64,000 nt of DNA from Spinacia oleracea (taxonomy: Eukaryota; Streptophyta; Magnoliopsida; Caryophyllales; Amaranthaceae), in contig NC_079491.1 in NCBI RefSeq assembly GCF_020520425.1, positions 32,355,449 to 32,419,448 on the forward strand, in the 5' to 3' direction. Position 1 is the stretch's first letter. Each line of letters begins with the position of its first letter. The notes under the pieces were generated by a model. That model was not told where the DNA came from and ran no database searches. It worked only from the letters and a program-made list of their open reading frames with translations. This document shows positions 21,651 through 53,765 of the stretch, one piece after another. The translations under genes were made by a program, and so were the position numbers.

Positions 21651-24600
21651 AGTCCTCTCTTGGAATGTCAGAGGTCTCAATCTAATCCAGAAACAAGATA
21701 TTGTGAGGCAACTCATTCACAAGTATCATGTTGGATTGGTTGGGCTTCTGGAGCACAAGGTAAAGACTGCCAATCTAGGTAAGCTTTACCAGAGAATGTT
21801 TAGTACTTGGTGTTTTACAAGCAATGCTAGCTACCATGATGGAGGGAGGATCATTGTGGCATGGAATCCCAATAGTTTCATAGTGACCATTATTGTTGTA
21901 ACCAGTCAATTTGTTCACTGTTCTGTTACTCCAGTGGGAAGTACAACTAAATTTTTATGTACTTTCATATATGCATTCAATGAAAATAATGCTAGAGAGG
22001 AGTTGTGGAGAGATTTGAGGCACCTGAATACTCATGATCCATGGGTGCTATGTGGGGATTTCAACTGTGTCATGGCTTTGGATGAAAGAATTGGTGCTCC
22101 AGTGAGGACTAGTGAGATCACTTCTATGTGTGATTGTATGCAGTATTGTGGCATGGAGGATGTTAAGAGTGTAGGCAATTTGTACACTTGGAACAACAAG
22201 CAACAAGGAATGGCTAGAGTATTTTCAAAAATTGACAGAATCATGGCTAATACTGGTTGGCAGAATGAGTATGGGTCTGCAGAAGCTTGTTTCATGAATG
22301 AAGGTTCTTTTGATCATTCTCCAGGTCTCCTTACAGTGTATCCTAGGAATTCAGGAGGGAAGAAACCCTTCAAATATTTTACAATGTGGAGAAATGCTCT
22401 GGATTTTAATACAATTGTCCAAGAACAATGGAACACCCAGATTCAAGGAAGTAAGATGTTCACTGTTGTAACAAAACTGAAAAAAGTAAAAGCAGCTTTG
22501 AAGGAGCTGAATAGAGCTGGATTTAGTGATGTTCATGCTGCTGATCTTAAAGCTCACCATGAAATGATTGCAGCTCAGAATGCAATGCATTTAAATCCAA
22601 CTGATCAAGCTTTAGCTGATGCAGAATTACAAGCTGTGCAGGAGTACAGAACAAAACACAAAGCTTATCTGGAATTTCTGAGGCAGAAAGCAAAACTAGA
22701 ATGGCTCAAAGCAGGTGATGAAAACACAGCATTGTTTCATCAGAGTATCAGAAGTAGAAACACTCATAACCAGATTTACAGCATACATGACATGAATGGG
22801 GTTTGGACTGACACTGCAGATGGTGTTTCTAAAGCCTTCTTGGATTTTTATTCCACTTTGTTGGGTAGCACTCATTCTAATAGAACTGATGTTCTCAGTC
22901 AGATTGTTCAAGCAGGTCCAATGGTTACAGATCAACACAAGCAGATTTTGAATGCTCCTTACACTTATGATGAAGTTAAGAAAGCTTTGTTTTCAATTCC
23001 TGGTATTAAGGCTCGGGCTTTGGGACCTTCTTCTATAGAGACACATGGAACATTGTGGGAGAGGATGTAATTTCTGCTGTGCTAGATGTGTTGCAGCATG
23101 GGAAACTGTTAAAAGAAATCAATCATACTGCCATTACTCTTATTCCAAAGACCAAGTGCCCTAGGAATGTGAGTGAATTCAGGCCAATTTCTTGCTGTAA
23201 TACACTTTACAAGTGTGTAACTAAAGTCTTGTGTGGGAGACTCAGGCAAATCCTTCCTGATTTAATTCTTGAGAATCAAGGGGGATTTGTACATGGGAGG
23301 TATATTGTACACAATATTATGGTGGTTCAAGATTTGGTGAAACATTATGGTAGGAAAGATGTGAAGCCTAGCTGCTTAATGAAGATTGATCTGCAGAAGG
23401 CATATGATACAGTGGATTGGAACTTTCTGCTTCAAATGTTGGAGCAGTTAGGTTTTCCTAAGAAGTTTGTTGATCTAATTATGGAATGTGTGACTACCCC
23501 CATGTTTTCTCTGGTTATTAATGGCTCTCTTCATGGTTTTTTCAAATCTAAAAGGGGGCTGAGACAAGGGGATCCCATGTCCCCTCTGTTGTTTGTAATC
23601 TGTATGGAGTATCTTTCCAGAATATTTCATCAAATGAGTGAGCTTCCCATGTTCCAGTTTCATCCAAGATGCAGAGAGGTAAAGCTGACACACTTGTGTT
23701 TTGCTGATGATCTTATTCTGTGCTGCAAAGGTGAATTTCCTTCAATATATTTGCTACTTCAAGCTTTCAAGTTGTTCTCTGATTCATCTGGTTTAATGGC
23801 AAATAAGAAAAAATCATCTATTTATTGTTATGGCATAGCTGAAGATGATGTGAAGATAGTAGTGTCAGCTTCTGGTTTTACTAGGAGTACCTTACCTTTC
23901 AAGTATCTGGGTGTACCTATCTGTGCTAAAAAGATTACTGCTGCACAATGTGAAATGTTAGTGGATAAGATGATTCTCATAATCAAAGTGTGGAGTTCTA
24001 GAAACCTTTCCTACACAGCAAGAGTTCTTCTGATTAATTCTGTTTTGCTGAGTTTGCATAGTTATTGGGCTCAGATTTATGTCTTGCCTAAGAAGGTTCT
24101 GAAAGAGATCACCATGGTGTGTAGGTCATTTCTGTGGAGTGGGCAAGCTTATAGTAGCAAGCCAAGTAACATTTCCTGGAAAAGTTCTTGTTGTGAGAAG
24201 AAAGAGGGTGGTCTTGGCTTCAGAGATATTCTGACATGGAATACTGCAGCTATTGGTAAGTATGTGTGGGCTGTGGCCACAAAGCAAGATAGTATATGGA
24301 TCAAATGGGTAAGCTCTGTATATGTCAAGGATGGGGAATGGTGGGAGTACCAGCCTAACAATTCTGCAAGCTGGTACTGGAGAAAGATTTGTGAAACAAA
24401 AGAAGTCCTGAAGCAATACTACACTATTGCTGAATTTAGTAGTATGTCCTGTTATTCTGTGAAAGATGTGTATCAAAAACTTACAGGTCCAAAACCCTTG
24501 GTGCACTGGGATCATATGGTTTGGAATAGATTGAATACACCCAAGCACAAGTTCATTTGTTGGATGGCTGTTCAGGATAGGTTACAGACAGCTGCAAGAT

Positions 24601-25001
24601 TAGCCAGAATTGGTGTTTGCTCCTCCCCAAACTGTCTGTTGTGTGATCAGCAAGAAGAGGTCCATGACCATCTGTTTTTTGCTTGCCCCTATAGCAAGAG
24701 GTGTATTGAGGAGATCAAGAGTTGGGTTGGCTTTCACACTACTCACAGTGGGCTTCAGATTCTCATTAGCAGAATTGGTAATAGTCATCAAACCAAATTT
24801 CGAAGGCAAGTCTGGTATGCTGCTTTAGCAGCAACTGTGTATTCTGTATGGAGGAGTAGGAATGGCAGTTTATGGGATAAGTGTATCCCAACTGTGCATA
24901 GCACTGTTACTAGAATCAAGCAGATTGTGAGAGATCGAATTAGGAGTGTAATGCCTAGAAAAGTAAGTCGAAAGGATAGCTTATGGTTTTTAACTCTTTA
25001 A
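21643..25001 (+). pseudogene. LINE ORF2 (endonuclease and reverse transcriptase), frameshifted
   Basis: The first frame (21643-23070) begins MDRVLSWNVRGLN and holds an APE-type endonuclease with WVLCGDFNCVM, FSKIDRIMA and FDHSP. A one-base shift at about 23010-23040, inside the linker before the RT, moves coding to a second frame that runs to TAA at 24999-25001. That frame carries SEFRPISCCN, CLMKIDLQKAYDTVDW, RGLRQGDPMSPLLF, the catalytic LCFADDLIL and FKYLGVPI, then a zf-RVT region (CWMAVQDRLQTAARL; C-x2-C with H-x3-F-x2-C near 24660-24700). No C-terminal RNase H is visible, so the element belongs to an L1 group lacking it or has lost it. The frame overlaps ORF1 by 8 nt. ORF2 normally nicks DNA and primes reverse transcription at the target. 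Confidence 0.9.
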
Positions 25002-25150
25002 GAGTTGTTTAGTTGTTTTGCTTTCTCCTTTGTGAAAGGGTCCAACCTAGTTGGTTCGTTTCCTTTGGAGTTAGCCTAGCTTGTAATCTGTTTTGGTGAT
25101 TAATATTATCCTTTCTTACTTAGCAAAAAAAAAAAAACCATCTTAAAAAT

Positions 25151-25709: not shown

Positions 25710-25714
25710 ATACA

Positions 25715-26178
25715 TGTTCCGGGTGTGGAATGAGAACAGCTGACTGTGGGATACTTGATTCCTGTTGAGAGTGCCGGTTGATATCTGCACAACAGAATGG
25801 ATTAACTAGCCTCGGGGGTGGTTCGAGGATCCCCCCTCCGATGCTTAAGTAAGATTACTGAGGGATTAAGAAGTGATTAAGAGCTAATCAGTGAGTAAGA
25901 AAGAAGTGTGTTTAAGTGTTTGTGTACCTCATAGCAATAAATGAGGTGCTCCTTATATAGACCAATCCAAAGGTACGATCAGGTGGGTCCCTTGTGGTTA
26001 GATAGCGACCTGTTGATAGTGATCCTTGGTTGGTTGTCCTCATGATAACGCCGGTAGGGGTCTTGCAAATATTGCCGGTAGGTGCTGTTTACCTAAGATG
26101 ACCAGATTACCTGCAGGTTAAGTTTACCTACGGGGAGTTCTGCCGGTACCAAGTGGTGCCGGTAGGACACCCCGTACA
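25715..26178 (-). repeat. 3' LTR of the Ty3 element (left end on +)
   Basis: 464 bp, starting TGTTCCGGGTGTGGAATGAG and ending CACCCCGTACA on +. It pairs with 35725-36188 at equal length. By eye the pair differs at seven sites, for example G/A after GTGCC and C/T in ATCTGC. Confidence 0.95.
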
Positions 26179-26197
26179 ACTAGCCCCCTCAGAGTAA
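26179..26197 (-). promoter_or_regulatory. Polypurine tract of the Ty3 element
   Basis: On the minus strand TACTCTGAGGGGGCTAGT lies directly before the 3' LTR. The purine run GAGGGGG sits at the usual PPT position, where plus-strand DNA synthesis is primed. The same core recurs at 26271-26290 and through the 28-bp array at 26411. Confidence 0.65.
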
Positions 26198-26410
26198 GCG
26201 CATATATGACAATTGCCGCGCTTGCTCTGAATAAATGGGAAAAAATAAGTACTATTTTGATACCTGGTGGTACAACTAGCCCCCTCAGAGTGAAGTGCGG
26301 GCGTTGACTGTGTTGCGAGTGTTTTTGAGGAAAGGCCGCGAACAGTTTGCCGACTGCCTTCGCTCTGAATGAAGAATTTGATTGCTAGGTCCTTTGGAAA
26401 AAAAAATTGG

Positions 26411-27061
26411 ACAACTAGCCCCCTTGATACAAAAATTTGGACGACTAGCCCCCTTGATACAAAAATTTGGACGACTAGCCCCCTTGAAAAATATTTGGAC
26501 GACTAGCCCCCTTGAAAAATATTTGGACGACTAGCCCCCTTGAAAAATATTTAGACAACTAGCCCCTTTGAAAAATATTTGGACGACTAGCCCCCTTGAA
26601 AAAGATTTGGACGACTAGCCCCCTTGAAAAATATTTAGACGACTAGCCCCTTTGAAAAAGATTTGGACGACTAGCCCCCTTGAGAAAGATTTTTGACGAC
26701 TAGTCCCCTTGAGAAATATTTGGACGACTAGTCCTTTTGAGAAATACCTGGTCGACTAGCCCCCTTGAAAAATATTTGGACGACTAGCCGCCTTGAAAAA
26801 TATTTGGACGGCTAGCCCCTTTGAAAAAGATTTGGACGACTAGCCCCCTTGAGAAATATTTTTGACGACTAGTCCCCTTGATAAATATTTGGACGACTAG
26901 TCCTTTTGAGAAATACCTGGTCGACTAGCCCCCTTGAAAAATATTTGGACGACTAGCCCCCTTGAAAAATATTTGGACGGCTAGCCCCCTTGAAAAAGAT
27001 TTTGACGACAAGCCACCTTGAGAATACTTCGGATGACTAGCCACTTTTTGAATTTTTACCC
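26411..27061 (-). repeat. 28-bp minisatellite of PPT-like units in the Ty3 3' region
   Basis: About 23 units of 28-30 bp have the consensus ACGACTAGCCCCCTTGAAAA + ATATTTGG on the + strand. On the element's own strand each carries AAGGGGGCTAGT, nearly the same as the polypurine tract GAGGGGGCTAGT beside the LTR. Within the array a block of about six units (from the variant with GAGAAAGATTTTTG near 26680 through the GGCTAGCCCC unit) recurs as a second block near 26840-27000, a higher-order duplication. Tandem repeats in the 3' untranslated region are known for Tat elements; the link to the PPT is my observation. Confidence 0.9.
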
Positions 27062-27217
27062 TACAAGTGGCGGGAGATTGCTAGCCACGTTCTTCCACGT
27101 GGCCTTCATCCTGTGTCTCATTTCTTGCGCTTATTTTGGGCCGTTGATTTCGATCGTAACTGTCTTTTCAACTGCTTGACTTAAGGGACATGACCTTTCG
27201 CATACGCCCCTTTGACC

Positions 27218-27223
27218 TATAAA
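27218..27223 (+). promoter_or_regulatory. TATA box for the antisense ORF
   Basis: TATAAA in the context GACCTATAAACCC lies on the + strand about 400 bp before the antisense ORF's ATG at 27621 and after the minisatellite. Its position suits an internal promoter that drives transcription against the element's main RNA. Confidence 0.5.
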
Positions 27224-27620: not shown

Positions 27621-30600
27621 ATGACCAAAACTTTGGGTGGGGACAATCCTTCTTCTCAACCTTCTGGGTTTTCTGGTTGGAGTGTTCCTTGAGAGAGTAA
27701 CTGTAGTTGGGCCCAGGAGAGGTCGTCCTCTCAATCTAATTTAAGACGGACTGCCATTCGTGAGATATATGACGAGGGTTTGAGTCAGGCTGAGAGAGAG
27801 CGTTGTTTTGCCCTACATCAACTGCGGGATCGAATGATAAGGGAAATGCGGTCTCATGAGCGCCCTATTCCGGCTACTGAGCCTGTTTTAGATGTTTCCC
27901 CTATTTCAGTGTGATATCACATTCGCTCTTATCGGGAATTTTTGGATTCCGCCGGTAGTGGCCACGGGCAGTATGGAACTAATACTGGCAACTTCGGTGT
28001 TTCTTTTGGTCAGGCTGATAGGATGGCACCGAAACAACCGGCTAGCACTAGCGGCCGCCGCCCTGGTAAAGAGCCTGTAACTGATGATGTTGATATGGCT
28101 ATTGGCGAATACTCTGATGGTGATTCCATTTTTGAGGATTCCGCCGGTAATGGTGTTGACGAACACAGGGGTGGTGGTGGTGATGAAACCGGCGTATCTG
28201 GTAAGGATGGTATGGAAGCCAGAGATAATGGTATTGGCTCAGATGATGATGATCCTGCCGACGTTATAGTGGCCGACGTTCTTGCGGATGAGGCTAAGGA
28301 GCAACCTTATTTTACCGACGACGCCACGGATGTTCACAGGAAAGAAGAGCTTCCTCCTTTAGACAGTCTTCCTCGTACGACCGAGATTTTGACGACATGG
28401 CGTGATTTGATTATCAAGAAAAATCATGTGGTTCATGGGGGGATTTTTCTTGGCTTACCGGCTGAATATAAATTGGTAGTGCCGCCTGAAGGTGCTACAA
28501 TTTTTGACTGTCCTCCCGGCCATATTGCTGTGTACGCGAAGCATTTTGATTTTGGGCTTCGCTTTCCTTTGCATCCTTTCGTTGAGAAGATATTTCGAGC
28601 CTGGAATGTCTGTTTGGCCCAAGTTACACCTACTACTATCAGAACCGTCATTTCTTTTGTCTGGCTGTGTCTGTTTAAGCAATGGCCGCTGACGTTGATT
28701 TATTCAAGCGGTTGTTGTGGTTAAAGAAGGACGGTGAGACAGGATGGATGTCGGCATATAGTGCAACAAAAAGGAAGACTGTGCATCCTCCTATGTCGAG
28801 CTGTAAAGACTGGCAGGATCGTTTTTACTTTGTTCAAGTTCCTGACGATTTTTCTCTTCAGCGGACCTTTACCAAACCTAGGACTCGAATGGAGCAGTAT
28901 AACCAGCGTGGTTTGGGCCGTCGGGAAAGAAAAGCATTTGATTATTTAGAGTGTGACATTCTTGATGTCGGCCTCAGCAAAAAGCAGGCTGTAAATAAAA
29001 ATTGGCTTCCTAACGCCTATTATATTTTGGGTAGCCAACCGTTGTCTGCTGTCGGCTTATGCAATACTCATTGTTTTGGTAAACACGCCATTAGTTGATT
29101 TGTCAGCTTTTATTATTATTTTGTTATATATTATTTATTTATTTTGCTTAGTTAGGTTTTTTGTTTTGTACAAGTGTCTTTCCGGTATTAATTGCTTTGT
29201 CGTCTTTTGCAGGTACGAAAACCTTGGATAGAGATATTCTTGGTTTTGACGAGAATTGGAGACCTGTGTGCACGCAGCCTCCTCCACCTAAAGCTAAATA
29301 CGACACGATATCAACGTATTCGACACGAGCTTCTTCCCGTCGCTCTACTACCACTGTTGCGAAGAATCGTGTGAGTGCCGCCTGCAAATCCAAATCTTCT
29401 TCTGTTGCTGTTTCTAAAGCTCCACCATCATCTACAATCCAATCCAATCCTACAGGCCGAGGTGGAAACCGCCGGAAAAGGTCGTCTCTTAATACCAGTC
29501 GGTCTAATCCGACTAAGAGGACAAAGGCCACTGGTGAGGATGATGTTCTTGCCTATCTTGAGACGAATGAGCCTGTCTTGGAATCTGCCGCCAAGAAAAC
29601 TGTTGATTCAACCATTCAGGTGCACCCGTCTCCTCAAGCTTCTCTTGAGATTTTGGACACCGAGGGTCCTGGCGGCGGTTTTGATGACAATTTGCACCGT
29701 CAAGCTACTTTTGCTGCTGTTACCGGTGGTAATTCTAGTATGCCTCCTGTTAGTCGCAACGAGAACAAATCTGGGGATTCTAGGCTGAATTACCACCTAC
29801 CTTTGCGTACCGGTGGTTGGATCGAGGATACTCCTTTCAAGATTCCGCCGCAAATGAAGTCATGGTTTGAGACTCCTGGCGGTGAACCTACCGATCAATT
29901 TTACCCCACTATTGACTTGCTGTGTGGGGAGTCGGTGGCCACCGACTCAGCTAAGGACGGTGGTGATTTAGGCTACCGTTCTTTTAAGGACTTGATAACG
30001 CCTGCTGACAGGCCACAAGGTCAGATTGATGCCCCTGCTGCTCAACACTTTAATGACCTCAACAAGGTATGTTATCTTGTTGTTGTTTTTTTGCAATATG
30101 TCCATTTGGTTGAGGGCCATTTTGAATCCCTTCCTTGTTTTATGTTCAGGCCGTTCAGTCCAGCATGGACTTGTACTATGTTTACCGTTGGAATCAGCTG
30201 CAGCTGACCCAGAACAACATTGATATGGCCGACTTAAGGAGGCGGGCTGAGGATGCGGAGTCTTCGTTGGAAGATAGCAAGAAGAAGTTGGATACTGTGA
30301 CTTCTGATTTGGAGGTGGCTAATAAACGGCTCAAGGATATTGAGCCTAGGCTGCAGTCTGAGACTGAGAGGGCAAACGGCTTGGATCAATAGTTGACGAA
30401 TGTTAATGAAGGCTTGCCAGGAGTGAAGAAATCTGCCGCCAAGAGGGTTGTTGACAAACTTCTTCAGTCTGACTGGTTTAATGACCTTCTGACTCTGCGC
30501 CATAACGGCGGTTGGTGTGCTGCGCATCGGGTCGTTTGCCATGTGAAGAAGCTGGATGAGGATGGGTGGCAAGAATTTGAGGATGGGTATGAGGAAAAAG

Positions 30601-30725
30601 AGCTGTACAAGGTTGCTACCGGCTTTGAGCCTCAGGAGCTACCCGAGGCGGTGATCTGTAATGCTAATCAGAGGACCCTGCCTCCTTTGCAGGTTCCAGA
30701 AGCAGCCTATTGGTCTGATGATGAG
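27621..30725 (+). pseudogene. Antisense ORF of the Ty3 element (PF04195-like), broken
   Basis: This gene lies antisense in the 3' part of the Ty3 element. From ATG 27621 the frame is open except for TGA codons at 27690 and 27912. It encodes an acidic N-terminal part, then a domain like the plant 'putative gypsy type transposon' family (HVVHGGIFLGLPAEYKLVVP ... GLRFPLHPFVEKI). A one-base loss near 28680 shifts the frame. Introns are predicted at 29079-29212 (G|GTAAAC ... TTGCAG) and 30067-30149 (AAG|GTATGT ... TTCAG); both keep phase. The third exon encodes a heptad-rich coiled coil (LRRRAEDAESSLEDSKKKLD), has TAG at 30390, and runs on in frame to about 30720, where it collides with the integrase remnant. 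Four lesions make it non-functional here. Comparable antisense ORFs occur in Grande-type elements; function unknown. Confidence 0.8.
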
Positions 30726-30734
30726 CAATTAAGA

Positions 30735-30940
30735 ACTTGCGCCCTCCGGCCGCCATTGGGAATGGTCCAACAATATCCATTCCCCATTGCGCGAATGGGA
30801 TTGGGTTCAGAATGGGCATCAAATCATTAGCTGGCAAGTTTATCACAGCTGAAAACTTTTGACATTTCTCGCACTTTTTTACATATGCTCGACAATCTTC
30901 TAACATTGTTGGCCAGTAATAGCCTTATCTTTGGCAGATG
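30735..30940 (-). pseudogene. Integrase remnant: zinc-binding domain and start of core
   Basis: After a frame change near 30935 the minus strand encodes YYWPTMLEDCRAYVKKCEKC (the C-x2-C half of the HHCC finger), then PFAQWGMDIVGPFPMAAGG, which holds the first Asp of the D,D-35-E core. Sequence then runs into the 3' end of the antisense ORF, so the rest of the core, including the second Asp and the Glu, is missing. The element therefore could not integrate with its own enzyme. Confidence 0.8.
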
Positions 30941-32440
30941 ATGGCAAGGGGTTTTCCACCGGCATGGTTCCCACATGTCCCTTCGTGCATTTCTTCGATC
31001 AGCCTTGCTGACTCGAATGCTGTCAGGCACCTTAAGAATGGCAGGCTAAATGACTTTTTGTACAACCGTCCCCACAGGATGATGTACCAAACCGCGTCCC
31101 TTTTTGTCTTTTTGGCTTCTGCCAAATCTGCTGGTAGGGCTCCAGTCTGTATGTATGTTTGGATATTATCGTACCATTCTGAAGTAATCGTGATGGCCAT
31201 GACCCGTAGTTCTTCCGACTCCGTACTTCGCTTATTCATGACTTCCATCATGACTGTTCTTTTCAAGTCGGCGATATTCGAACTTGCTAACTTTGATAGC
31301 GCATCTACCAGCGTATTTTCTGCTCGGGGTACCAGATTAATGCTGAATTTCTCTAGCTGAGCCGACACTGACCTCAACTTTTCCAGGTATTTTACCATTG
31401 AAGGTTCTTTGGCCTCGTACTCTCCGCTGAATTGACTTGCTACTAGCTGGGAGTCTGTTGTCAGTGTTACTCTTTTGGCATCTGCTGCGAGGCACATTTG
31501 GATGCCGGCGATTGCTGCCTCGTATTCTGCCTCATTATTTGACGCGTTGAACATAAACTTTATAGCACACTCAAAGATGTCTCCTCCTGGCGATTTCATG
31601 ATTATTCCGGCCCCACTGCCTGTCTGCGCAGCTGAACCATCCACTGACACCTCCCATACTTCAGCTTGTACTTCATCCTCTTGGTATGACGCTTCAACTA
31701 TGAAGTCCGCCAATGCCTGGGCTTTGATTGCAGTTCTTGGCCGGAATTCCAAGTCAAACTCGGACAACTCTATTGCCCACTTTAGCAGCCTGCCTGATGT
31801 ATCTAGCTTGCTAATGGCTTTTTCGAGAGGGTAGTTTGTCATCACTTCGATTGTATGCGCGTCAAAGTATGGTCTTAGCTTTCTAGCCGCGATAAGGACT
31901 GCATATGCCATTTTCTCCACCAACGTGTATCTTGTTTCTGGGCCGTTTAGCACATGGCTCACAAAATATACTGGTTGCTGCACTTTGTTTTCTGTTTCGG
32001 CTACCAGTATTGCTGCGACTGTTTTGGTGACGCCGATATGTACAACTGTAATTTTCCGCCCTCCTTTGCCCTTGCCATTGTTGGTAGGTTCTTCAGGTGA
32101 CTTTTTAGAGATTCAAAAGCCTCTTGCTCTGCCGACCCCCATTTGAATTTCTTGTTTTGCCTCAAGGTTGTGAAGAAGGGCATTTGCTTGTCTGCCGACT
32201 TGCTCACAAATCTGTTCAAGGCGGCCATTTTTCCTGTCAACCGCTGTATGTCTTTTACACTTTTGGGTTGCGGCAGACTGATGATTGCTTCTACTTTTTC
32301 AGGGTTAGCGTCTATGCCACGCTCGCTGACTAAGAACCCCAAGAATTTTCCTGGTCTTACTCCGAAGACGCATTTTTTCGGGTTTAATTTCATCATGTAC
32401 TTTCTCAAAGTCTCGAAAGTTTCTCGGAGATCGGTAATAT
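30925..32440 (-). pseudogene. RT C-terminus, Ty3 RNase H remnant and second RNase H
   Basis: Two frames cover this part of pol. At 32408-32001 are the RT thumb and connection: KLNPKKCVFGVRPGKFLGFL and GIDANPEKVEAI. A shift near 32035 leads to 31983-30925. That frame first has the Ty3-type RNase H remnant (QPVYFVSHVLNGPETRYTLV, AARKLRPYF), then a second, complete-looking RNase H (EVSVDGSAAQTGSGAGI, NNEAEYEAAIAG, TTDSQLVASQ, NTLVDALSKLA) that supplies the D-E-D-D residues. The second copy resembles the archaeal-type RNase H known in Tat elements. The frame ends with MHEGTCGNHAGG, the HH half of the integrase finger. Confidence 0.85.
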
Positions 32441-33976
32441 GATCCTCAGCTCCTCTTTCCGGCTTTTTACGATAGAGTCGTCTACATAGACCTCCACGTT
32501 TCTGCCTTTTTGGTCGGCAAACACCTTGTCGACCAGCCTTTGATACGTTGCCCCTGCATTTTTCAACCCGAATGGCATTGCCTTGTAACAGAAAACTCCT
32601 GCATCCGTGATAAAAGACGCCTTCTTCCTGTCTGATTTATGCAGGCTGACCTGGTGATATCCTGAGAAAGCATCTAGGAAACTGAGCATTGTGTGGCCGC
32701 TAGTAGAGTCTACCAGCCTATCAATCCTTGGTAGTGGGTAGAAATCTTTCGGACACGCTCTGTTAAGGTTGGTGAAATCTACACACATTCTCCATGACCC
32801 ACTCGGCTTTTTTACCATTACTACATTTGCCAACCATTCAGGGTAATCACATGGCTCAATGAAACCTGCCGCCAACAGTTTATCCACCTCTTCTTGTATT
32901 GCTGCCATTTTTTCCGTGGAGAAATTACGCTTTTTCTGCCGTACTGGCCTAACATTTCTGTCGGCGTTTAACCGGTGGACCATTATCTCTGGATCGATAC
33001 CAGGCATCTCATCCGTTGAGAATGCAAAGATGTCCGCGTGCTCTCTTAGCAAGCTTATGAGGTTGATCTTCATGTCACTCCCCATTTCTGTACCGATCAC
33101 GATCGTTCTTTCCATATTTCCAACCTCCAGCTCAATATTTTCTGTCAGACCATCTGGCATTGGTCTTGGTGCTGATACCGGTCTCTCATCAAAGTGTTCC
33201 ATGTCTAGGTCAGTTCGACCTCTTTTCGTGCCGTTCTTCTTTTTTGGCCTTTGTTCTTGCCTTGCCGGCTCAGTAGTCCAGTTTACTTCTTGCCTTGCCG
33301 GCTCAGTAGTCAAGTTCACTTTTGGGACCATTCTTCCCGGTGTTCTCAAAGCAGTCAAGTAACAGGATCTTGCCGCCAACTGACTTCCCCTTATCTTTGT
33401 CGGCCTTTCCAGGTTCGACATGTATATCATTGTCAAGTGATAGGTGGAGACTACCGCCTGCGCGTCATGTATGAATGGGCGACCGATGATCACATTGTAG
33501 GCCGCTGGTACTTTGATGATTAGGAAATCCACCATGAGATCTCGCATTTCAGATCCCTCTCCGATTTTCACCGGCAGCCGTATGCTACCCTCTGGGTACA
33601 CTGTAGATCCTGAGAAACCGATTACTGGGTAGTTCACCCTTTGAAGCTCGTCCTCTGGTATGTGCAATTGTTTGAAGGCTTCCCAGAAGATGATGTTTGC
33701 TGAGCTGCCGCCGTCTACCAGTACTCTGTTCATATCGGCATTTGCTATATCGATTGTGAGAACTAGCGGGTCATCATGCGGGAAAATGATGCCTTTGCAA
33801 TCCGATTCCGAGAACGTCATCACTGGTATGTTGGGTGGGTTCGGCCACACTCTTGTGTTATGATAGTTTACCATGTGCCTGTGTTCCTCCAAACTTCTGT
33901 TGGCGTCGCTTATCGTCCCTCCGTGGACTGGACCGCCAGAAATTACATACACGGGTGGTTTTTTCCCGCCATCCCT
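32405..33976 (-). pseudogene. Pol: protease and reverse transcriptase, frameshifted
   Basis: This frame follows gag directly in the same reading frame after one UAG. It encodes an aspartic protease with NRVLVDGGSSANII (D-G-G/S variant active site) and a reverse transcriptase with SGSWRMCVDFTNLNRACPKD, LSFLDAFSGYHQV, KAMPFGLKNAGATYQRLVDK and the catalytic EVYVDDSIVKS. A one-base indel near 32447, just after YVDD, ends the frame early; the downstream RT portion is in another frame (32408-32001). An ATG exists at 33952, but translation by read-through or shift from gag is more usual. Confidence 0.88.
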
Positions 33977-35653
33977 CTATTCTGCTCTGGCACTGGTTTT
34001 CGGCTGTTTTTGCTCGATTCTAGGTGGCTGATATGGCTGTTCGATTCTAGGGTATTGTTGTTGATTTTGCTGTTGTGTCCGGTATGAATTGGCAGAGTTT
34101 CCCCCCACCAAGTTGTTGTTACCATTTCCTTGTCTCGCCCTATACTGCGAAAAATACCCCTTTGTGACCATATCCTCAATGTTGTCTTTGAGGTCTCTGC
34201 AGTCCTCTGTGAGGTGGCCGTGCTCATTATGGAAGTCACAGAATTTTTTGACATTTCTTTCCCTACTCTGCATTGGTGGCGGCCTTCTCCAACCGTCCAT
34301 CTTGTTGCTTATGTTGTAAATTGCCGTCCGCGGTGTGTTCAGCGGAGTGTAGTTATCAAAGAGTCCTCTGGACTCCCTTCTGTCTTGTCGGGGTCTCTGC
34401 CCCTGTGGATTGGCATTTCTGTTATTCTGGTTTTTCTGGCTTGCCCCTTGCTGATTATTGTTCTGGTGAAAATTGTTTCCTCCTTTTCCCGCCTGGGGGT
34501 TATAGCTTGGATTGTATCCGACATTTCCGCCGGTTGCCACTACCACATTGGAGATCTTCATCATTTCATCCCCCCTGATATACTCATTTGCCTTGTGCAG
34601 GACGTCGCCCAAATTAGTGTATGATTTCCGGCTGAGGTACTTCTTGAATTCGCACTCTTGCATTCCCCTCATCAGAGCCAGAACCGCAACCTCCTGCTGT
34701 AGGTTGGGAATAGTGATTGATTCGTTGTTAAAGCGGGTGAGGTAATCTCTTAATGGCTCTCTATCTCTTTGAGCGAACGACATTAACTCTCCCGACGATT
34801 TCTTTCTCTTCTGTTTGCTCACAAATCGTGACAAAAATGACGCCTGCAGCTGTCGAAAACTGTAAATGGAGTGTGCCTCTATGCCCTTATACCAACTTGC
34901 TGCAACTCCTAAGAGTGTGGACGGGAATACCTTGCACCACATGGCGTCAGAATCTGTGTACAACATCATGTGCTGTTCGAATGTGGTGCAGTGATCCTCC
35001 GGATCCGTTGTCCCATCGTATCTCCCTGTCGGGATTTTTATCTTTTCCATCCTTTCTTCTAGGATTTCTCGGCATAGAGGAGAATCTTTTGGCTGGATTG
35101 TCTGCCGTCTAGCTATCTGTAGAATCGGCGCTCTTCGCTCATATTCAGTGGTGGGGACTTGCTCTGTTTCAGGCCACTCTGTTTCCGTCGGATCCGAGCG
35201 CTTTCTTTTTTCCGGGGTGTTTTCTTGATTCAGGGCGGTTAGGAGATCCCTAACGGGTAACTGGGGATTCGCCGACTTGGTCTTTCTTAGACTGCCGACT
35301 GAGCCTGGCTGCTGTGAGGCCGGTAACTCTGACAAAGCGGCCATCACCGCCGACATTGTTTTCAATTGTTCTCCCGTGAATACTTCCGATAGGGGAGACA
35401 GGCGCTCCTGCAGCGTCTGCTCCAGCGGAGTTTTTGGTTGCTCTCTGGCAGGGCTTTCCATTTCTAACTCATCATCGTCCTCCACTGTGAACTCTTTTTG
35501 TGTCGGTACCGAGGTGTTTTTTGTTACTGGGTTTAGAATTGATTGTGCTTGTAATGGATGGGCTGGGTTTACAAGTGAGGGTTGGAATTTGGAGGTTGTC
35601 GCCGGTTGTGGAGTTGCTGCTTTTTCCTGACTTTTCTTTGATTTTTTTACCAT
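33977..35653 (-). CDS. Gag polyprotein of the Ty3 Tat-type element
   Basis: An intact 558-residue ORF starts MVKKSKKSQEK on the minus strand, about 70 nt from the PBS. The N-terminal 180 residues are polar and low in complexity. A retrotransposon gag domain covers about 210-370 (PSTLLGVAASWYKGIEAHSI, FLSRFVSKQKRKKSS, LRDYLTRFNNESITIPNLQQ). A Gln/Asn-rich region follows, then a zinc-knuckle-like CDFHNEHGHLTEDC (C-x2-H-x4-H-x4-C) near 470. The frame ends with UAG at 33979-33977 and is open again directly after it into protease. Gag forms the virus-like particle. It is the only major ORF of this element with no lesion. Confidence 0.9.
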   Translation of the reverse strand: MVKKSKKSQEKAATPQPATTSKFQPSLVNPAHPLQAQSILNPVTKNTSVPTQKEFTVEDDDELEMESPAREQPKTPLEQTLQERLSPLSEVFTGEQLKTMSAVMAALSELPASQQPGSVGSLRKTKSANPQLPVRDLLTALNQENTPEKRKRSDPTETEWPETEQVPTTEYERRAPILQIARRQTIQPKDSPLCREILEERMEKIKIPTGRYDGTTDPEDHCTTFEQHMMLYTDSDAMWCKVFPSTLLGVAASWYKGIEAHSIYSFRQLQASFLSRFVSKQKRKKSSGELMSFAQRDREPLRDYLTRFNNESITIPNLQQEVAVLALMRGMQECEFKKYLSRKSYTNLGDVLHKANEYIRGDEMMKISNVVVATGGNVGYNPSYNPQAGKGGNNFHQNNNQQGASQKNQNNRNANPQGQRPRQDRRESRGLFDNYTPLNTPRTAIYNISNKMDGWRRPPPMQSRERNVKKFCDFHNEHGHLTEDCRDLKDNIEDMVTKGYFSQYRARQGNGNNNLVGGNSANSYRTQQQNQQQYPRIEQPYQPPRIEQKQPKTSARAE

Positions 35654-35706
35654 CTTTCTGTGAGAGATCCATACTGACTGTTCTACCGTTGCAAGGGATG
35701 AGGTCC

Positions 35707-35722
35707 CCTCCTTCTAGCGCCA
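35707..35722 (-). promoter_or_regulatory. Primer binding site of the Ty3 element
   Basis: On the minus strand TGGCGCTAGAAGGAGG lies 2 nt inside the 5' LTR. TGG at the start fits pairing with a tRNA 3' CCA end. I did not identify which tRNA it matches. Confidence 0.75.
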
Positions 35723-35724
35723 AT

Positions 35725-36188
35725 TGTTCCGGGTGTGGAATGAGAACAGCTGACTGTGGGATACTTGATTCCTGTTGAGAGTGCCGATTGATATTTGCAC
35801 AACAGAATGGATTAACTACCCTCGGGGGTGGTTCGAGGATCCCCCCTCCGATGCTTAAGTAAGATTACTGAGGGATTAAGAAGTGATTAAGAGCTAATCA
35901 GTGAGTAAGAAAGAAGTGTGTTTAAGTGTTTGTGTACCTCATAGCAATAAATGAGGTTCTCCTCATATAGACCAATCCAAAGGTACGATCAGGTGGGTCC
36001 CTTGTGGTTAGATAGCGACCTGTTGATAGTGATCCTTGGTTGGTTGTCCTCATGATAACGCCGGTAGGGGTCTTGCAAATATTGCCGGTAGGTACTGTTT
36101 ACCTAAGATGACCAGATTACCTGCAGGTTAAGTTTACCTACGGGGAGTTTTGCCGGTACCAAGTGGTGCCGGTAGGACACCCCGTACA
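35725..36188 (-). repeat. 5' LTR of the Ty3 element (right end on +)
   Basis: 464 bp, starting TGTTCCGGG and ending CCCCGTACA on +. It carries the promoter for the minus-strand RNA by position. It is followed by the target duplication ATACA. Confidence 0.95.
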
Positions 36189-36798
36189 ATACACATACAT
36201 ACGCTTGTAATCCTTTATACCCCGTACAACCTTATGGTACATTCTTACATCATTATACAATGGAGTTATGAATATCTATGCACATTTAAAAATAAGAATT
36301 ATAAATAAATATCGTATAATTGTTACTGATAATATGTAGTAATTTTCTTAGAGGAAATTATGTATGTAATAATACACACTATTTTATTCGCTTCATTTTA
36401 GATATAAATCCTAAGCTTAGATGACTTTCATGTGCTAATTAAATAAAAATGTACTACCAAAAACAAGAAACTAAAGCTTAATGCAAGCTTGAAATAAACT
36501 AAAATTAGTTTACTTTCCTATGTGATACATTCAAGGAATCAAAGCAGTTTTTGTCTACCAAAAAAATCTATGCACAACTGTGGTGTATGTTTATGCTATC
36601 ACATTTCAAATGCTAAATTCAAAGACCTATAAGGTTCTATTACGCCTAATAAGATAATTCTTTGACAAACAGGCTAGGTTCCGATCAATTTGACTAATCC
36701 GAGTCATATAGTCTTTCAAAACGGACTACAAACTATTTGGTGGCGATTCATTCAAAATACAATGTTTATAAGAGAATGGAACTAAGAAAAATGGAGTA
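36189..36798. other. AT-rich flank, nothing recognised
   Basis: No gene or clear repeat was found between the LTR element and the next MITE. Confidence 0.4.
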
Positions 36799-39699: not shown

Positions 39700-40990
39700 A
39701 AAACAATTATATTGGCCAAAAATGACATTTTTGAACCCAACTACCAACAAACGAACCTCTTTCCACATTCTAACCCTTTTTCATGATTTATAAGATTAGT
39801 CAGATGATTATAAGACTCATTTCAAGTTCGTTATGCACGCATATTGGTCATTTGGATCGATATAGGTCATTTATGGCCAAAAATGGCATTTTCGTTCCCA
39901 ACTACGAACAAACAAACGTATATCCACATTCTAAACCTTTTTCATGATTTAGATGATTAGTTATATGATTATAAGACTCGTTTCAAGTTCGTTATGCACG
40001 CCTATGTTTCATTTGGGTCGATATAGGTCATTTATGGTCAAAAATGGCATTTTCGATCCCAACTACCAACAAACGAACTTATATTCAAATTATAAACCTT
40101 TTTAATGATTAATATGATTAGTTATATGTTTATGAAACTCATTTCAAGTTCGTTATGCACGCCTAAGAGTCATTTGGGTCGATATAGGTCATTTATGGCC
40201 AAAAATGGCATTTTCGATCCCAACTACCAACAAACGAACCTATTTTCATATTCTATACGTTTTTCATGATTCATATGATTAGTTATATGATTATAAGACT
40301 AATTTCAAGTTCGTTATGCACGCCTAAGGGTCATTTGGGTCGATATAGGTAATTTATGGCCAAAAATGGCATTTTCGATCCCAACTACCAACAAACGAAC
40401 TTATATTCAAATTATAAACCTTTTTAATGATTAATATGATTAGTTAAATGTTTATGAAACTCATTTCAAGTTCGTTATGCACGCCTAAGGGTCACTTGGG
40501 TCGATATAGGTCATTTATGGCCAAAAATGGCATTTTCGATCCCAACTACCAACAAACGAACCTATTTTCATATTCTAAACGTTTTTCATGATTCATATGA
40601 TTAGTTATATGATTATAAGACTCATTTCAAGTTCGTTATGCACGCCTATGGTTCATTTGGGTCGATATAGGCCATTTATGGTCAAAAATGGCATTTTCGA
40701 TCCCAAATATCAACAAATGAACCTAAGGACACTTTCTAAATCTTTTTTATGTTTGATATGATAAGTTAGAACTTTCTGAGTATACTAAGATTTATTTCAA
40801 GTTCTTTATGCACATCTAAGGCTCATTTGGCCCGATATAGGTCATATTTAGCCAAAAATGGCATTTTCGATCCCAAATATCAACAAATGAACCTAAGGAC
40901 ACTTTCTAAACCTTTTTTATGCTTCATATGCTTAGTTGGAGGTTACTAAGATTCATTCCAAGTTATTTATGCACATCTAAAGCTCATTTG
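39700..40990. repeat. 161-bp tandem array, about eight units
   Basis: Units each contain CAAAAATGGCATTTTCGATC, starting near 39717, 39877, 40038, 40199, 40360, 40522, 40681 and 40853. The period is 159-162 bp except for the last (172). Later units are more diverged, notably in the AACATCAACAAATGAAC part. It lies inside the CACTA element. Confidence 0.9.
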
Positions 40991-41027
40991 GCTCATATAG
41001 GTACATATGTCCCATAACGCCCAAAAT

Positions 41028-47739: not shown

Positions 47740-48097
47740 TCTATCTATATAATATACTAAAAGAGAGGAAATCAATGTGGTGATGACAAATATCACTCAT
47801 TGATTGGCCTTTCTTTTAATATATAAAAATAATAATTAAAAATATTAGTCAAAATTTATTTGTTTTATTTAAGGAAAAATATGCACAAAGAAAATATTAT
47901 TGATTGTCATTATAAATCTTTAAATTCTGTTGATAATATAACATCCTAAAAATATACCGTAAAAATGTAACTTACCAAGATTTACATTTTTAAATTAATA
48001 TTCTTATATGTTATTTTTTCCTCAAACTACGTACAAATCTGATTACATAGTGATGACAAGGGTCGTTATTTTATTTGATTATCTTATAATCTATATA

Positions 48098-48658
48098 CTC
48101 CCTCCGTCCCGGAATACTTGAAACGCTTTCCTTATCGGGTCGTCCCGGATTACTTGAAACGCTTCTAAAAATGGAAACTTCACATAATATTTTATTATTT
48201 TCTCACCTTACCTAAGGGCCCACCAACAACCCTACTACCCCAAATAAACATTAAAAAATTCATGATCCCCCACCACATCCCACTATCTATATTAAAAAAA
48301 TACCACACTACTAACTACTACCTCCGTTTCAGAAAGTTATTTACGCTTTGGTAAATGTGTCCAAAGTATGAAAACTTTGATCGTAAATTCCCACTATTAT
48401 ATACATCAAAATGTTACATGTAAGATCATGTTAGATTGGTCTCGTTATTCATTTTGAGAATATTAACTTTTTATAATTTTTTTCCATACAAAATTGGATA
48501 TATTAACGGTCAAACATTGCACCGGAGTCCGTGCAAATAGTAAGTGTAAAGATCTTTTTGAAACGGAGGAAGTACCTTTCAATTAAATAAGAAGTCAATT
48601 ATAATGAATTAAACTCCGTGCCGGTCAAACGGTTTCAAGTATTTCGGGACGGAGGGAG
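48098..48658. mobile_element. Stowaway MITE, copy 1, split by a second MITE
   Basis: CTCCCTCCGTCCCGGAATAC and the inverted right end CTCCCTCCGTCCCGAAATAC are near-perfect TIRs, flanked by TA. The same element is uninterrupted at 51181-51485 (305 bp). Confidence 0.9.
48318..48572. mobile_element. Nested Stowaway-like MITE present only in copy 1
   Basis: CTACCTCCGTTTCAGAAAGT and the inverted right end CTTCCTCCGTTTCAAAAAG flank a 255-bp element with TA on each side (48316-48317, 48573-48574). At the matching site of copy 2 (about 51399) the sequence reads AACTACCTTTC, an empty site with a single TA. Confidence 0.92.
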
Positions 48659-49671
48659 TATTATACGAAAGGAGAGTAAATCAATGTGGTGATGACAAAT
48701 GTCATTCACCGATTGGTCTCTCCTTTAATATAAATAATTTAACTTAAAAAAATGAAAACATCATATACTTTACGTGTTCAATTCTCTATCCCACTCTTTT
48801 ATCCCACTATGTACAACTTAATACCATGCATTAGTCCACATCATGAAAGTACTAAATTTATTCATGCACTTTTTTGTTTAACTGGGTAAATTTTTATCGT
48901 CTCTTTCCTCTCCTCCCTAATCCCTTATTGAGTTATTGCAATTCTGCAAACTTCCACTGCTCACCACCATGAAATCTATGTAAATTTCCATACAAAAATG
49001 AAAAACTGTTAATCGTTTATAATCATTATCAAGCACAATCATATATTGTATCTCTACTCTCTCCCAAACTCCTCTGCCATCACGGTGGAAGATCCTAACA
49101 CTACGTCTAAGGTAATTATTATTCGTGATTTGTACTGTGTAGTATAGTACCGGTGCAATTCATGACTTATAATCTAAATATAAATTTTTATGAAAATCTG
49201 GTAGACAATTATCATTAAAATAGTACTTATAGATATTCTCTTAATTGAAACAATGACGGATAAATTGTTATTGCCCCTATCAATGTCTTATTTATTAAAA
49301 AAGTAAACAAATAATGATACATAGAAAAATTATTTTTACCCCATGTCAAGCATTAAGTTATCTCATTCACCCTTCCTTCGGTAGTCATACCACTTAGTAC
49401 TCATTTACCTCATTATTTGATCACTTAACGCCTACCCACCCCTCTCAATCCCCGTCTTGAGAAGTCGGCTACAAAATAAAATTCATCCACACTTCATCAC
49501 CCACCTGTGCGATGCAAGATTTACAATATCATCCACAGCCACCTACATTCTAAAAACTACTTTTTTATGACGAATAATAATTATTCACTCATATTATTGA
49601 AGTCTTAAGAGCATTTTGATTGGAATTTTGACTAATATATCGTAATCTATCTATATATTCTACGTACTAAT

Positions 49672-49760
49672 AGAGAGGAAATCAATGTTGTGATGAAAAA
49701 GGTCACTCATTGATTCGTCAATGAGTGACATTTGTCATCACCACACTGATTTCCTCTCTT
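49672..49760. repeat. 42-bp perfect-length hairpin made of two opposed Helitron-type starts
   Basis: AGAGAGGAAATCAATG... runs into its own inverted copy around a TTCG loop (49714-49717). The arms are two Helitron-like 5' ends facing each other. The second duplication copy has the same hairpin at about 52499-52587. Confidence 0.85.
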
Positions 49761-50850
49761 TTAGTATATTATGTTGATTAACCTAAATAAAAAAATTACA
49801 ACGTCAAATATTGTACAACTCTATAATTTCACGCAAATAGTATAAAGATTCTCAAATATAGGGGCTGAGAATCGTAATATCAAAGGTTAATTGCTTTTTA
49901 CAAAATATAATATGCATAACGTACTGACACTTACTAAAAATGTTACTACGTTGATTATGAATATAAAAAAAATACTACTTTTTTATGACGGGTCTTAGCC
50001 TAGACTTAATCTTAAATGTCAAAAATAATTTTTTCCACAATCTCATTATCGTAATATTTTTATATAGAACACGGATAATAGTTTATTCACTTATATGATT
50101 GAAGTCTTAAGGGCATGTTGATTGAAATTTTGACTAATCTATCGTAATCTATCTATCTATATAATATACTAAAAGATTTACAACGTGGTGATGACAAATG
50201 TCACTCTATGATTGTCTATCTCTCTTTTAATATAAATAATTAAACTTAAAAAAGAAAGTACAACAATACAGTCCTATAATCGATCTGAAGCAAATAGTAT
50301 GCAAATTCCTAAATATAGGGTTGAGAAACGTAATATCAAACGGTTCACTAATTTCCACCAAATATAATATGCATAACTGACACTTACTAAAAGTGCTAAC
50401 ACGTTAATTATGAATATAAAAAAAATGTTACTAATAACTTACATATAATTATAATGTTTTGTCCATTTACTTAGTTATTCTAATCATAAAAACAAATTGC
50501 CAAACACTCTATAATAGAGTTTTAAATTTCAAAATTGTCTTACCAACAAATGAATTGAGTCTAGAGGTGGGTTTGAGGCGGGAGTGAATACATGGGGAGG
50601 GGTCATGAATAGGGGATACATTTTATTTTGTACCTCTCGAAACGGGGATTGGGAGGGGTGAGGGGATACATATATTACTATCGTGGATGGAGGGGATAGG
50701 GATGAGAATTGTAAGAGGAGTATGGATGTGCAGGCCAAAAATGGATTATTTATCAAATATAGGGGTGTCAGATTGCCTGTGGATCAAGTTTTTTTGTGGA
50801 TCCCCATGTGCATCCTTCCTAAGGGACGGGGATAGAGGAAAGTTTGGTGG

Positions 50851-53676
50851 GAAATCAATGTGGTGATGACAAATGTCACTCATTGATTGGCCTTTCTTTT
50901 AATATATAAAAATAATAATTAAAAATATTAGTCAAAATTTATTTGTTTTATTTAAGGAAAAATATGCACAAAGAAAATATTATTGATTGTCATTATAAAT
51001 CTTTAAATTCTGTTGATAATATAACATCCTAAAAATATACCGTAAAAATGTAACTTACCAAGATTTACATTTTTAAATTAATATTCTTATATGTTATTTT
51101 TTCCTCAAACTACGTACAAATCTTATTACATAGTGATGACAAGGGTCGTTATTTTATTTGATTATCTTATAATCTATATACTCCCTCCGTCCCGGAATAC
51201 TTGAAACGCTTTCCTTATCGGGCCGTCCCGAATTACTTGAAACGCTTCTAAAAATGGAAACTTCACATAATATTTTATTATTTTCTCACCTTACCTAAAG
51301 GCCCACCAACAACCCTACTACCCCAAATAAACATTAAAAAATTCATGATCCCCCACCACATCCCACTATCTATATTAAAAAAAATACAACACTACTAACT
51401 ACCTTTCAATTATATAAGAAGTCAATTATAATGAATTAAACTCCGTGCCGGTCAAACAGTTTCAAGTATTTCGGGACGGAGGGAGTATTATACGAAAGGA
51501 GAGTAAATCAATGTGGTGATGATAAATGTCATTCACTGATTGGTCTCTCCTTTAATATAAATAATTTAACTTAAAAAAAATGAAAACATCATATACTTTA
51601 CGCGTTCAATTCTCTATCCCACTCTTTTATCCCACTATGTACAACTTAATACCATGCATTAGTCCACATCATGAAAGTACTCAATTTATTCATGCACTTT
51701 TTTGTTTAACTGGGTAAATTTTTACCGTCTCTTTCCTCTCCTCCCTAATCCCTTATTGAGTTATTGCAATTCTGCAAACTTCCACTGCTCACCACCATGA
51801 AATCTATGTAAATTTCCATACAAAAATGAAAAACTGTTAATCGTTTATAATCATTATCAAGCACAATCATATATTGTATCTCTACTCTCTCCCAAACTCC
51901 TCTTCCATCACGGTGGAAGATCCTAACATTACGTCTAACGGTAATTATTATTCGTGATTCGTACTGTGTAGTATAGTACCTGTGCAATTCATGACTTATA
52001 ATCTAAATAAATTTTTATGAAAATCTGGTAGATAATTATCATTAAAATAGTACTTATAGATATTCTCTTAATTGAAACAATGACGGATAAATTGTTATTG
52101 CCCCTATCAGTGTCTTATTTATTAAAAAAGTAAACAAATAATGATACATAGAAAAATTATTTTTACCCCATGTCAAGCATTAAGTTATCTCATTCACCCT
52201 TCCTTCGGTAGTCATACCACTTAGTACTCATTTACCTCATTATTTGATCACTTAACGCCTAACCACCCCTCTCAATCCCCGTCTTGAGAAGTCGGCTACA
52301 AAATAAAATTCATCCACACTTCATCACCCACCTGTGCGATGCAAGATTTACAATATCATCCACAGCCACCGACATTCTAAAAACTACTTTTTATGACGAA
52401 TAATAATTATTCACTCATATTATTGAAGTCTTAAGAGCATTTTGATTGGAATTTTGACTAATATATCGTAATCTATCTATATATTCTACGTACTAACAGA
52501 GAGGAAATCAATGTTGTGATGAAAAAGGTCACTCATTGATTCGTCAATGAGTGACATTTGTCATCACCACACTGATTTCCTCTCTTTTAGTATAATATGT
52601 TGATTAAAATAAATAAAAAATTACAACGTCAAATATTGTACAACTCTATAATTTCACGCAAATAGTATAAAGATTCTCAAATATAGGAGCTGAGAATCGT
52701 AATATCAAAGGTTAATTGCTTTTTACGAAATATAATATGCATAACGTACTGACACTTACTAAAAATGTTACTACGTTGATTATGAATATAAAAAAAAATA
52801 CTACTTTTTTATGACGGGTCTTAGCATAGACTTAATCTTAAATGTCAAAAATAATTTTTTTCCACAATCTCATTATCGTAATATTTTTATATAGAACACG
52901 GATAATAGTTTATTCACTTATATTATTGAAGTCTTAAGGGCATGTTGATTGAAATTTTGGCTAATCTATCGTAATCTATCTATCTATCTATATAATATAC
53001 TAAAAGATTTACAACGTGGTGATGACAAATGTCACTCTATGATTGTCTATCTCTCTTTTAATATAAATAATTAAACTTAAAAAAGAAACTACAACAGTAT
53101 AGTCCTATAATCGATCTGAAGCAAATAGTATGCAAATTCCTAAATATAGGGTTGATAAACGTAATATCAAACGGTTCACTAATTTCTACCAAATATAATA
53201 TGCATAACTGACACTTACTAAAAGTGCTAACACGTTAATTATGAATATAAAAAAAAAGTGTTACTAATAACTTACATATAATTATAATGTTTTGTCCATT
53301 TACTTAGTTATTCTAATCATAAAAACAAATTGCCAAACACTCTATAATAGAGTTTTAAATTTCAAAATTGTCTTACCAACAAAAGAATTGAGTCTAGAGG
53401 TGGGTTTGAGGCGGGTGTGAATACATGGGGAGGGGTCATGAATAGGGGATACACTTTATTTTGTACCTCTCGAAACGGGGATTGGGAGGGGTGAGTATTA
53501 TTACTATCGTGGATGGAGGGGATAGGGATGAGAATTGTAAGAGGAGTATGGATGTGCAGGCCAAAAATGGATTATTTATCAAATATAGGGGTGTCAGATT
53601 GCCTGTGGATCATGTTTTTTTGTGGATCCCCATGTGCATCCTTCCTAAGGGACGGGGATATAGGAAAGTTTGGTGG
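50851..53676. repeat. Large tandem duplication, copy 2 (2.83 kb)
   Basis: The direct neighbour of 47768-50850. Differences by eye are scattered single bases and a few short indels, such as a missing 16-nt piece at about 53494 relative to 50665. It includes a Stowaway MITE at 51181-51485 without the nested element. Confidence 0.95.
51181..51485. mobile_element. Stowaway MITE, copy 2, uninterrupted
   Basis: A 305-bp element with CTCCCTCCGTCCCG TIRs and TA flanks, the counterpart of 48098-48658. Confidence 0.9.
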
Positions 53677-53765
53677 GTGATGGGGTTTAAAAATGTATAT
53701 GTTGTGGGGTGATAGGGCGATGATGGATTTTAGATTGGACTCGCCTGTGCCGCTAATCATACATA

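Follow-up and report, generated by a model that had tools for sequence, protein, structure and literature searches.

What does it mean that a minisatellite beside the 3' LTR of a retrotransposon repeats, in unit after unit, a part of the element's own polypurine tract (PPT), and could such units serve as alternative priming sites? The question is raised by a 28-bp array in a stretch of 64,000 nucleotides from Spinacia oleracea (contig NC_079491.1), the whole of which was analysed and is called the window below.

The host element

The array is part of a minus-strand LTR retrotransposon of the Retand type (Tat clade, Ty3/gypsy), the features of which are collected in Table 1. Gag and pol are encoded on the minus strand, and an antisense ORF with a Transposase_28 (TRP28) domain lies between pol and the 3' LTR, as in Retand elements. 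One of the pol ORFs contains both RT_RNaseH (30-119) and RVT_3 (157-275), the latter of which is probably the archaeal-type RNase H (aRH); a second RNase H domain of this type marks Tat (PMC6317226). The 5-bp TSD and the length of the LTR agree with Retand, for which LTRs of 315-1194 bp are reported (PMC11963269), and a Tat-like array of at least three units, variable in number (10-24 units in 28 copies), is found between pol and the 3' LTR. Gag, pol with two RNase H-like domains and antisense TRP28 make up the Retand layout (PMC11963269, PMC6317226), an assignment based on domain content. The 12 ORFs scanned in the window copy gave no match to integrase (stretch concerned: 30207-30925), and at 10.5 kb the element is ~1.3-2.4 kb shorter than ten other elements (11.8-12.8 kb; 20 pairs, minus nine spanning 17 kb or more); the window copy therefore appears to be incomplete.

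Elsewhere in the window, 553-bp repeats (98.7%) alternate with 2.3-kb repeats (97.5%) at 47767-53677, as in a tandemly arranged LTR element, and a 161-bp tandem array of 8 copies occupies 39713-41002. An open frame of 663 aa at 23010-25139, followed by an A run near 25126, may, judging from its translation, encode a non-LTR reverse transcriptase.

Table 1. Features of the spinach element and its 3' region, in window coordinates
Feature	Position	Strand	Basis
TSD ATACA, 3' LTR side	25710..25714		ATACA found at both element ends
3' LTR, 464 bp	25715..26178	-	98.5% identity to 35725-36188; 7/464 differences
PPT1, GAGGGGGCTAGT directly before the LTR TG	26179..26190	-	junction alike in 28/28 3' LTRs read
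Inverted repeat abutting PPT1; 13-nt arms, one mismatch, loop 16	26189..26230	-	position test
PPT2, second PPT copy with LTR-start letters TGTAC	26270..26286	-	lowest leader-segment divergence
Inverted repeat abutting PPT2, weaker; 11-nt arms, one mismatch, loop 62	26285..26368	-	position test
28-bp minisatellite, PPT-like core in units, 169-bp six-unit higher-order block	26399..27042	-	TRF and core search
CCACGTGG, G-box-like, predicted antisense promoter part	27095..27102		motif comparison
CTATAAA, TATA-like, predicted antisense promoter part	27217..27223	+	motif comparison
Antisense ORF, Transposase_28 (TRP28, PF04195)	27915..28724	+	28.4 bits, cut-off 26.2
pol pieces: RT and two RNase H-like domains, more than one frame	30925..33976	-	domain scan of ORFs
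gag ORF	33977..35713	-	PF03732, E 2.9e-15
5' LTR	35725..36188	-	LTR pair comparison
TSD ATACA, 5' LTR side	36189..36193		ATACA found at both element ends

The array and the PPT share a core

TRF reported 22.8 copies of the 28-bp unit, and degenerate edge copies extend slightly beyond position 27042. The units carry AAGGGGGCTAGT or near variants of it, on the same strand as the PPT (GAGGGGGCTAGT, followed by TG). With at most one mismatch, RAGGGGGCTAGT was found at 21 places in the window, every one on the minus strand, versus 0.22 expected and a maximum of 2 in 100 shuffles. Besides PPT1, PPT2 and an outlier at 27373, these places comprise 18 array units, of which 12 match exactly and 6 have a single mismatch; the remaining array units have 2-3 mismatches. 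From the rate of this search the chance of a PPT-like core in a 28-bp unit is ~1e-4, and the match between the array and the PPT is not due to chance. The minisatellite with PPT-like units described in the first-pass annotation is thus confirmed. Its count of about 23 units with AAGGGGGCTAGT is true in a loose sense only, given the 2-3 mismatches of the remaining units. Of the two further PPT copies it placed at 26179 and 26271, the former (26179-26190) is no extra copy but the PPT adjoining the 3' LTR, while the latter, at 26275-26286, is indeed one extra long copy.

Arrays are inherited and change by blocks

Genomic copies were collected with a query comprising LTR, PPT and array; of 768 candidates the 40 best were scored, and 28 of these were read. 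All 28 contain an array (10-24 units) together with PPT1 and PPT2, but a query with the array in it and this choice of the top 40 favour copies that bear one. A genome search with the array only gave 261 candidates, of which 40 were scored (47 rows), and the leader sequences of 10 places were taken from it. TSDs are identical in 18 of 20 element pairs and one base off in the other two; together with the canonical ends, this indicates that in the copies read the array travels within complete elements.

In 12 arrays the mean pairwise divergence of units is 7-29%, versus 0-2.2% between the LTRs of the same elements, the sharpest case being L046, with 0/463 differences between its LTRs and 28% divergent units. 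As unit divergence is far above LTR divergence, the units diverged before insertion and the arrays were inherited. At the same time the arrays turn over fast, in blocks: there are 23 units in L001 but 17 in L002, whose 3' LTRs differ by 0.2%; between L046 and L051 (0.4-0.5%) the number of units is not the same and many individual units differ; and blocks of units also distinguish other pairs of close relatives. It is possible that this turnover occurred inside chromosomes (unequal exchange, gene conversion) rather than in replication.

A separate observation concerns the LTRs of L001 and L002 (with L009 and L012; 25715-26178 in the window), which lie on different contigs: their 3' LTRs, though 0.2% apart, each differ by 1.3-1.5% from the 5' LTR of their own element. 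A 3' LTR that is more similar to the 3' LTR of another element than to the 5' LTR of its own suggests some conversion between elements.

PPT1, PPT2 and their inverted repeats

PPT2 is a close duplicate of the PPT, 96 nt from PPT1. Its 12-mer at 26275-26286 is part of 22 bases (GTACAACTAGCCCCCTCAGAGT) common with the LTR/PPT junction, including the first five bases of the LTR. In the window PPT2 is identical to the terminal PPT. The array units begin their core with A where the PPT has G, and 131/363 of them deviate further. The 12-mer is intact in PPT1 of 23/28 copies and in PPT2 of 25/28, compared with 232/363 for the array core (Fisher p 0.06 and 0.006, respectively). Among 37 leader sequences (without L080, in whose 391 bases PPT1 was not found) the mean pairwise difference is 0.013 for PPT2, 0.027 for PPT1, 0.053 for the LTR end and 0.084 and 0.097 for the neighbouring segments; only the five LTR-end bases TGTAC have a lower value (0.011), and loop1 (0.030) and the stem1 arms (0.043) are also low. 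The most distant relatives read, L081 and L084, each show 0/17 changes in PPT2, although the segment that precedes it and the loop that follows differ by 20-28%. The low divergence of PPT2, as measured on such short segments, suggests constraint; conversion by PPT1 could also account for the likeness. As to L080, it has an array and PPT2 but no PPT1 in its 391 bases, with unrelated-looking sequence at the expected place of PPT1.

Inverted repeats whose 3' arm (in the sense direction) ends at or next to the G-run were found at PPT1, in weaker form at PPT2, and in shorter form in another Retand family, A (L059, L061, L065). The score of the PPT1 repeat is reached at 4/1060 positions in L001 and at 1/1060 in each of L003, L005 and L046, that of the PPT2 repeat at 27, 3, 1 and 9 of 1060 positions in the four copies. 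By the same position test a typical array unit has no comparable inverted repeat. In family B 5-16% of positions score as well as the repeat, so that nothing clear emerged, and in family C nothing clear was seen at one of two loci, with perhaps a repeat in L067. RNA folding around the PPT gave mixed results (z -4.7 to +0.8, 12 sequences).

Among the closest known parallels in arrangement are the Sireviruses, in which a cluster of several PPT copies with a G5 core immediately precedes the 3' LTR (Bousios et al. 2010, PMC2829016), and the inverted repeat bordering their PPTs and those of other copia elements is thought to aid primer formation (PMC2829016). As in the spinach element, PPT copies lie near the 3' LTR, an inverted repeat is found at the terminal PPT, and the copies further upstream, like most array units, have no AT/TG attachment site. 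However, Sireviruses are Ty1/copia elements with ~four identical octamers and no tandem array; one arm of their inverted repeat lies inside the LTR and none is found at the upstream PPTs, whereas PPT2 of the window retains TGTAC and has an inverted repeat of its own. The Sirevirus PPT reads AGGGGGAG, that of the window GAGGGGGCTAGT in an element with Tat-type features.

PPT1, PPT2 and the array could conceivably form a working plus-strand initiation zone, in which PPT2 would be a selected second origin provided with a structural signal, and the units would be extra starts or a strand-exchange landing strip for the two packaged RNAs. We consider this rather unlikely; if true, the zone would be a Ty3/gypsy parallel, in tandem form, to the PPT clusters of Sireviruses.

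LTR ends and the possible use of units as primers

Priming from a unit or from PPT2 that defined the LTR end would be visible at the LTR edges. A query with the 5' LTR found 40 places, all of which were read (39 are independent, as L075 and L076 share a flank). All 40 5' LTRs end at the canonical site, two of them with one changed base within the last three, and at 0/40 edges was PPT or array sequence present. Likewise, 0/28 of the 3' LTRs read start at another unit or at PPT2, and a search for the core with at most 2 mismatches in the outer flanks of the 5' LTRs (177-1500 nt each) gave five scattered matches, none at an LTR edge. With all 40 5' LTRs canonical, LTR-defining priming from units or PPT2 is unsupported, and in the copies read PPT1 alone sets the LTR end. 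Alternative LTR ends were accordingly rejected, and the proposal of the first-pass annotation that the array offers many alternative priming sites is unsupported as far as the LTR end is concerned; the survey of copies it called for did reveal variable unit numbers, but no 3' LTR beginning at an internal unit.

In a rival reading the units would act as a bank of alternative plus-strand primers: RNase H would leave purine RNA at many of them, and priming from each would speed up or secure second-strand synthesis or strand transfer. They lie on the same strand as the PPT, Sireviruses retain multiple identical PPTs near the 3' LTR (PMC2829016), and the PPTs of Ty3 and Ty1 appear to prime more than once (PMC5371799). 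Among 363 units from 12 arrays (two edge units per array left out), all seven purine positions of the core are kept in 343, which is weak evidence, as transitions keep purines regardless. By edit distance in the 12 arrays the core is ~fourfold less divergent than the whole rest of the unit, a comparison that favours the core because the units were cut at the core itself; by column the middle of the unit is ~twofold, and its last eight bases 1.2- to 2.3-fold, more variable than the core. In all four column tables the column of the core with the highest variability is one of the C-run, which corresponds to the G-run of the PPT, and TTTGGACG, which adjoins the core, is also fairly conserved, though somewhat less. 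Selection on the PPT-like core was for these reasons, the shrinkage from fourfold to ~twofold and the variable C-run, rejected as a proven feature. Moreover, the core is followed by CG in 292/363 units (TG in 27, CA in 39, other letters in 5), while the LTR begins with TG, so that the majority of units resemble a PPT core that lacks the attachment site. Given also the 0/40 extended 5' LTRs, such a bank of primers is improbable.

The region upstream of antisense TRP28

CACGTG is present between the PPT and TRP28 in 7/7 tested copies of the window family and at 7/9 loci of other families (not in L064 and L066), and in 5/7 of the tested window-family copies it is followed by a CCTATAA-type box. 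In the window copy the two boxes are 917 nt (CACGTG) and 1038 nt (TATA-like) from the PPT, with the array in between. In families B and C CACGTG is 66 or 103 nt from the PPT at 4/6 loci and the TATA-like box 99-135 nt at 6/6; in family A the order of the boxes is variable. The order of the CACGTG/TATA-like pair ahead of TRP28 (27095-27223 in the window) is kept at 4/6 loci of families B and C.

The array might therefore regulate the antisense TRP28 gene from upstream, with the repeated motif as a putative protein-binding site that merely resembles the PPT. The position of the array between the PPT and the two boxes is in keeping with this, as are the conservation of TTTGGACG beside the core, somewhat below that of the core, and the maize Grande antisense gene23, which is transcribed from a promoter in its own upstream region (PMC7264820). 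Yet families B and C have the same layout of boxes without an array, the order of boxes varies in family A, and a match of 11-12 nt to the PPT is not explained by regulation alone. We hold a regulatory array to be improbable as well.

Other Retand families of the spinach genome

Other Retand families were reached via TRP28, and 11 loci were read, with LTR edges inferred from TG..CA and loss of similarity. With edges so placed, the PPT reads CGTGGGGCTAA followed by TG in family A and GAGGGGCAAAT in families B and C, i.e., with a related but different core. CTAGT, which ends both the PPT of the window family and its array units, is absent from the inferred PPTs of A, B and C. Family A has short arrays (~2-5 units) at three of four loci, which are unlike its own PPT and indicate that the PPT-like array is family-specific. 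This is the outcome of the refutation test of the first-pass annotation (family members with arrays that share no sequence with their PPT) when it is extended to the other array-bearing family. No array was found between PPT and TRP28 at six loci of families B and C. A PPT-like array as a general Retand rule was rejected, as it was not seen in L059, L061, L065 (family A), L063, L068 (B), L067 or L069 (C), a count that omits L060 and L062 (no LTR edge), L066 (changed PPT) and L064 from the 11 loci. Independently of the arrays, a stretch of 20-24 bp at 25834-25857 of the window LTR (CCCTCCGATGCTTAAGTAAG and neighbours) is common to the Retand LTRs of L063, L064 and L066-L069, families whose LTRs otherwise do not match that of the window element.

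That the array is a passive minisatellite of unrelated origin with a coincidental likeness to the PPT is very improbable, for although Retand arrays are family-specific and their origin is called unknown (PMC11963269), and those of family A are unlike their own PPT, the core match has a chance of ~1e-4 and lies on the same strand, PPT2 shows PPT duplication in the same interval, and CTAGT is common only to the window family's PPT.

Origin of the array

The explanation that we favour, with reasonable though not strong confidence, is that the array was seeded by the family's own PPT, amplified in blocks and inherited, with LTR ends set by PPT1 only. A partial copy of this PPT (core AGGGGGCTAGT) would have seeded a minisatellite in the 3' region. 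Multi-unit blocks would then have been amplified and reshuffled over rounds of replication, the likeliest agent being slippage of reverse transcriptase or template switching between misaligned repeats, while the array is inherited along with its element. PPT2, as the more complete duplicate with an adjoining inverted repeat of its own, has stayed nearly unchanged and may provide an additional plus-strand start without effect on the LTR end.

The PPT is the likely seed because the 11-12 nt core matches the family's own PPT, including CTAGT, which is absent from the inferred PPTs of three other families; seeding by the own PPT is the simplest reading of these sequences. Outside the core, a comparison by eye revealed no clear similarity of the unit to the flanks of PPT1 or PPT2, which speaks against a straightforward duplication of the PPT with its flank. 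The first-pass annotation had suggested that plus-strand priming or template switching at the PPT generated the array. This survives as regards the likely seed, but a creation of the array at this insertion is refuted by the divergence of units versus LTRs; the block-wise changes agree with template switching or slippage, though its occurrence at the PPT itself is putative.

Relation to known arrays and extra PPTs

Retand arrays described previously resemble the present one in lineage, position adjoining the 3' LTR, antisense TRP28 ORF and variable repeat number (PMC11963269); the accessible text of that paper states their origin and function to be unknown and does not mention a relation of units to the PPT, whereas the window array carries a PPT core. 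The 3'UTR repeats of Ogre/Tat elements (Macas 2009, via PMC7004042) and the minisatellites of soybean Gmr9/GmOgre (PMC3305785), the latter with interleaved unit types in GmOgre, likewise consist of variable tandem repeats that lie 3' of the coding region, ahead of the 3' LTR; unlike the window array, no PPT-like unit is reported for them in the accessible parts of these sources. Differences by blocks of units are familiar from Tat arrays; as their cause Macas 2009 (told in PMC7004042) proposed illegitimate recombination or an abnormal strand transfer involving co-packaged copies, and for the soybean repeats slippage and conversion were proposed (Mogil, PMC3305785).

Extra PPTs are known from beet Bongo3 (PPTa; PMC3605345) and from Athila4, Calypso, Ty1 and HIV-1 (cited in PMC2829016), where, as here, a second copy lies away from the LTR; as far as these sources go, it is a single extra copy, in contrast to the close duplicate plus array of the spinach element. 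Repeats resembling the PPT near the 3' LTR were noted earlier in other plant lineages, e.g., Sireviruses (Havecker 2004, cited in PMC2829016). The literature searched, mostly outside subscription papers and available in part, contains no Tat or Retand array described as PPT-like. Multiple PPTs beside the 3' LTR and Retand arrays are each already known.

Tat/Ogre 3' arrays give rise to plant satellites (PMC7004042). The family described here, with an array that has the core of its own PPT and lies beside a conserved duplicate PPT, ties one Retand array to a replication signal, and provides a testable case of how Tat arrays arise and why extra PPTs recur in unrelated plant elements.
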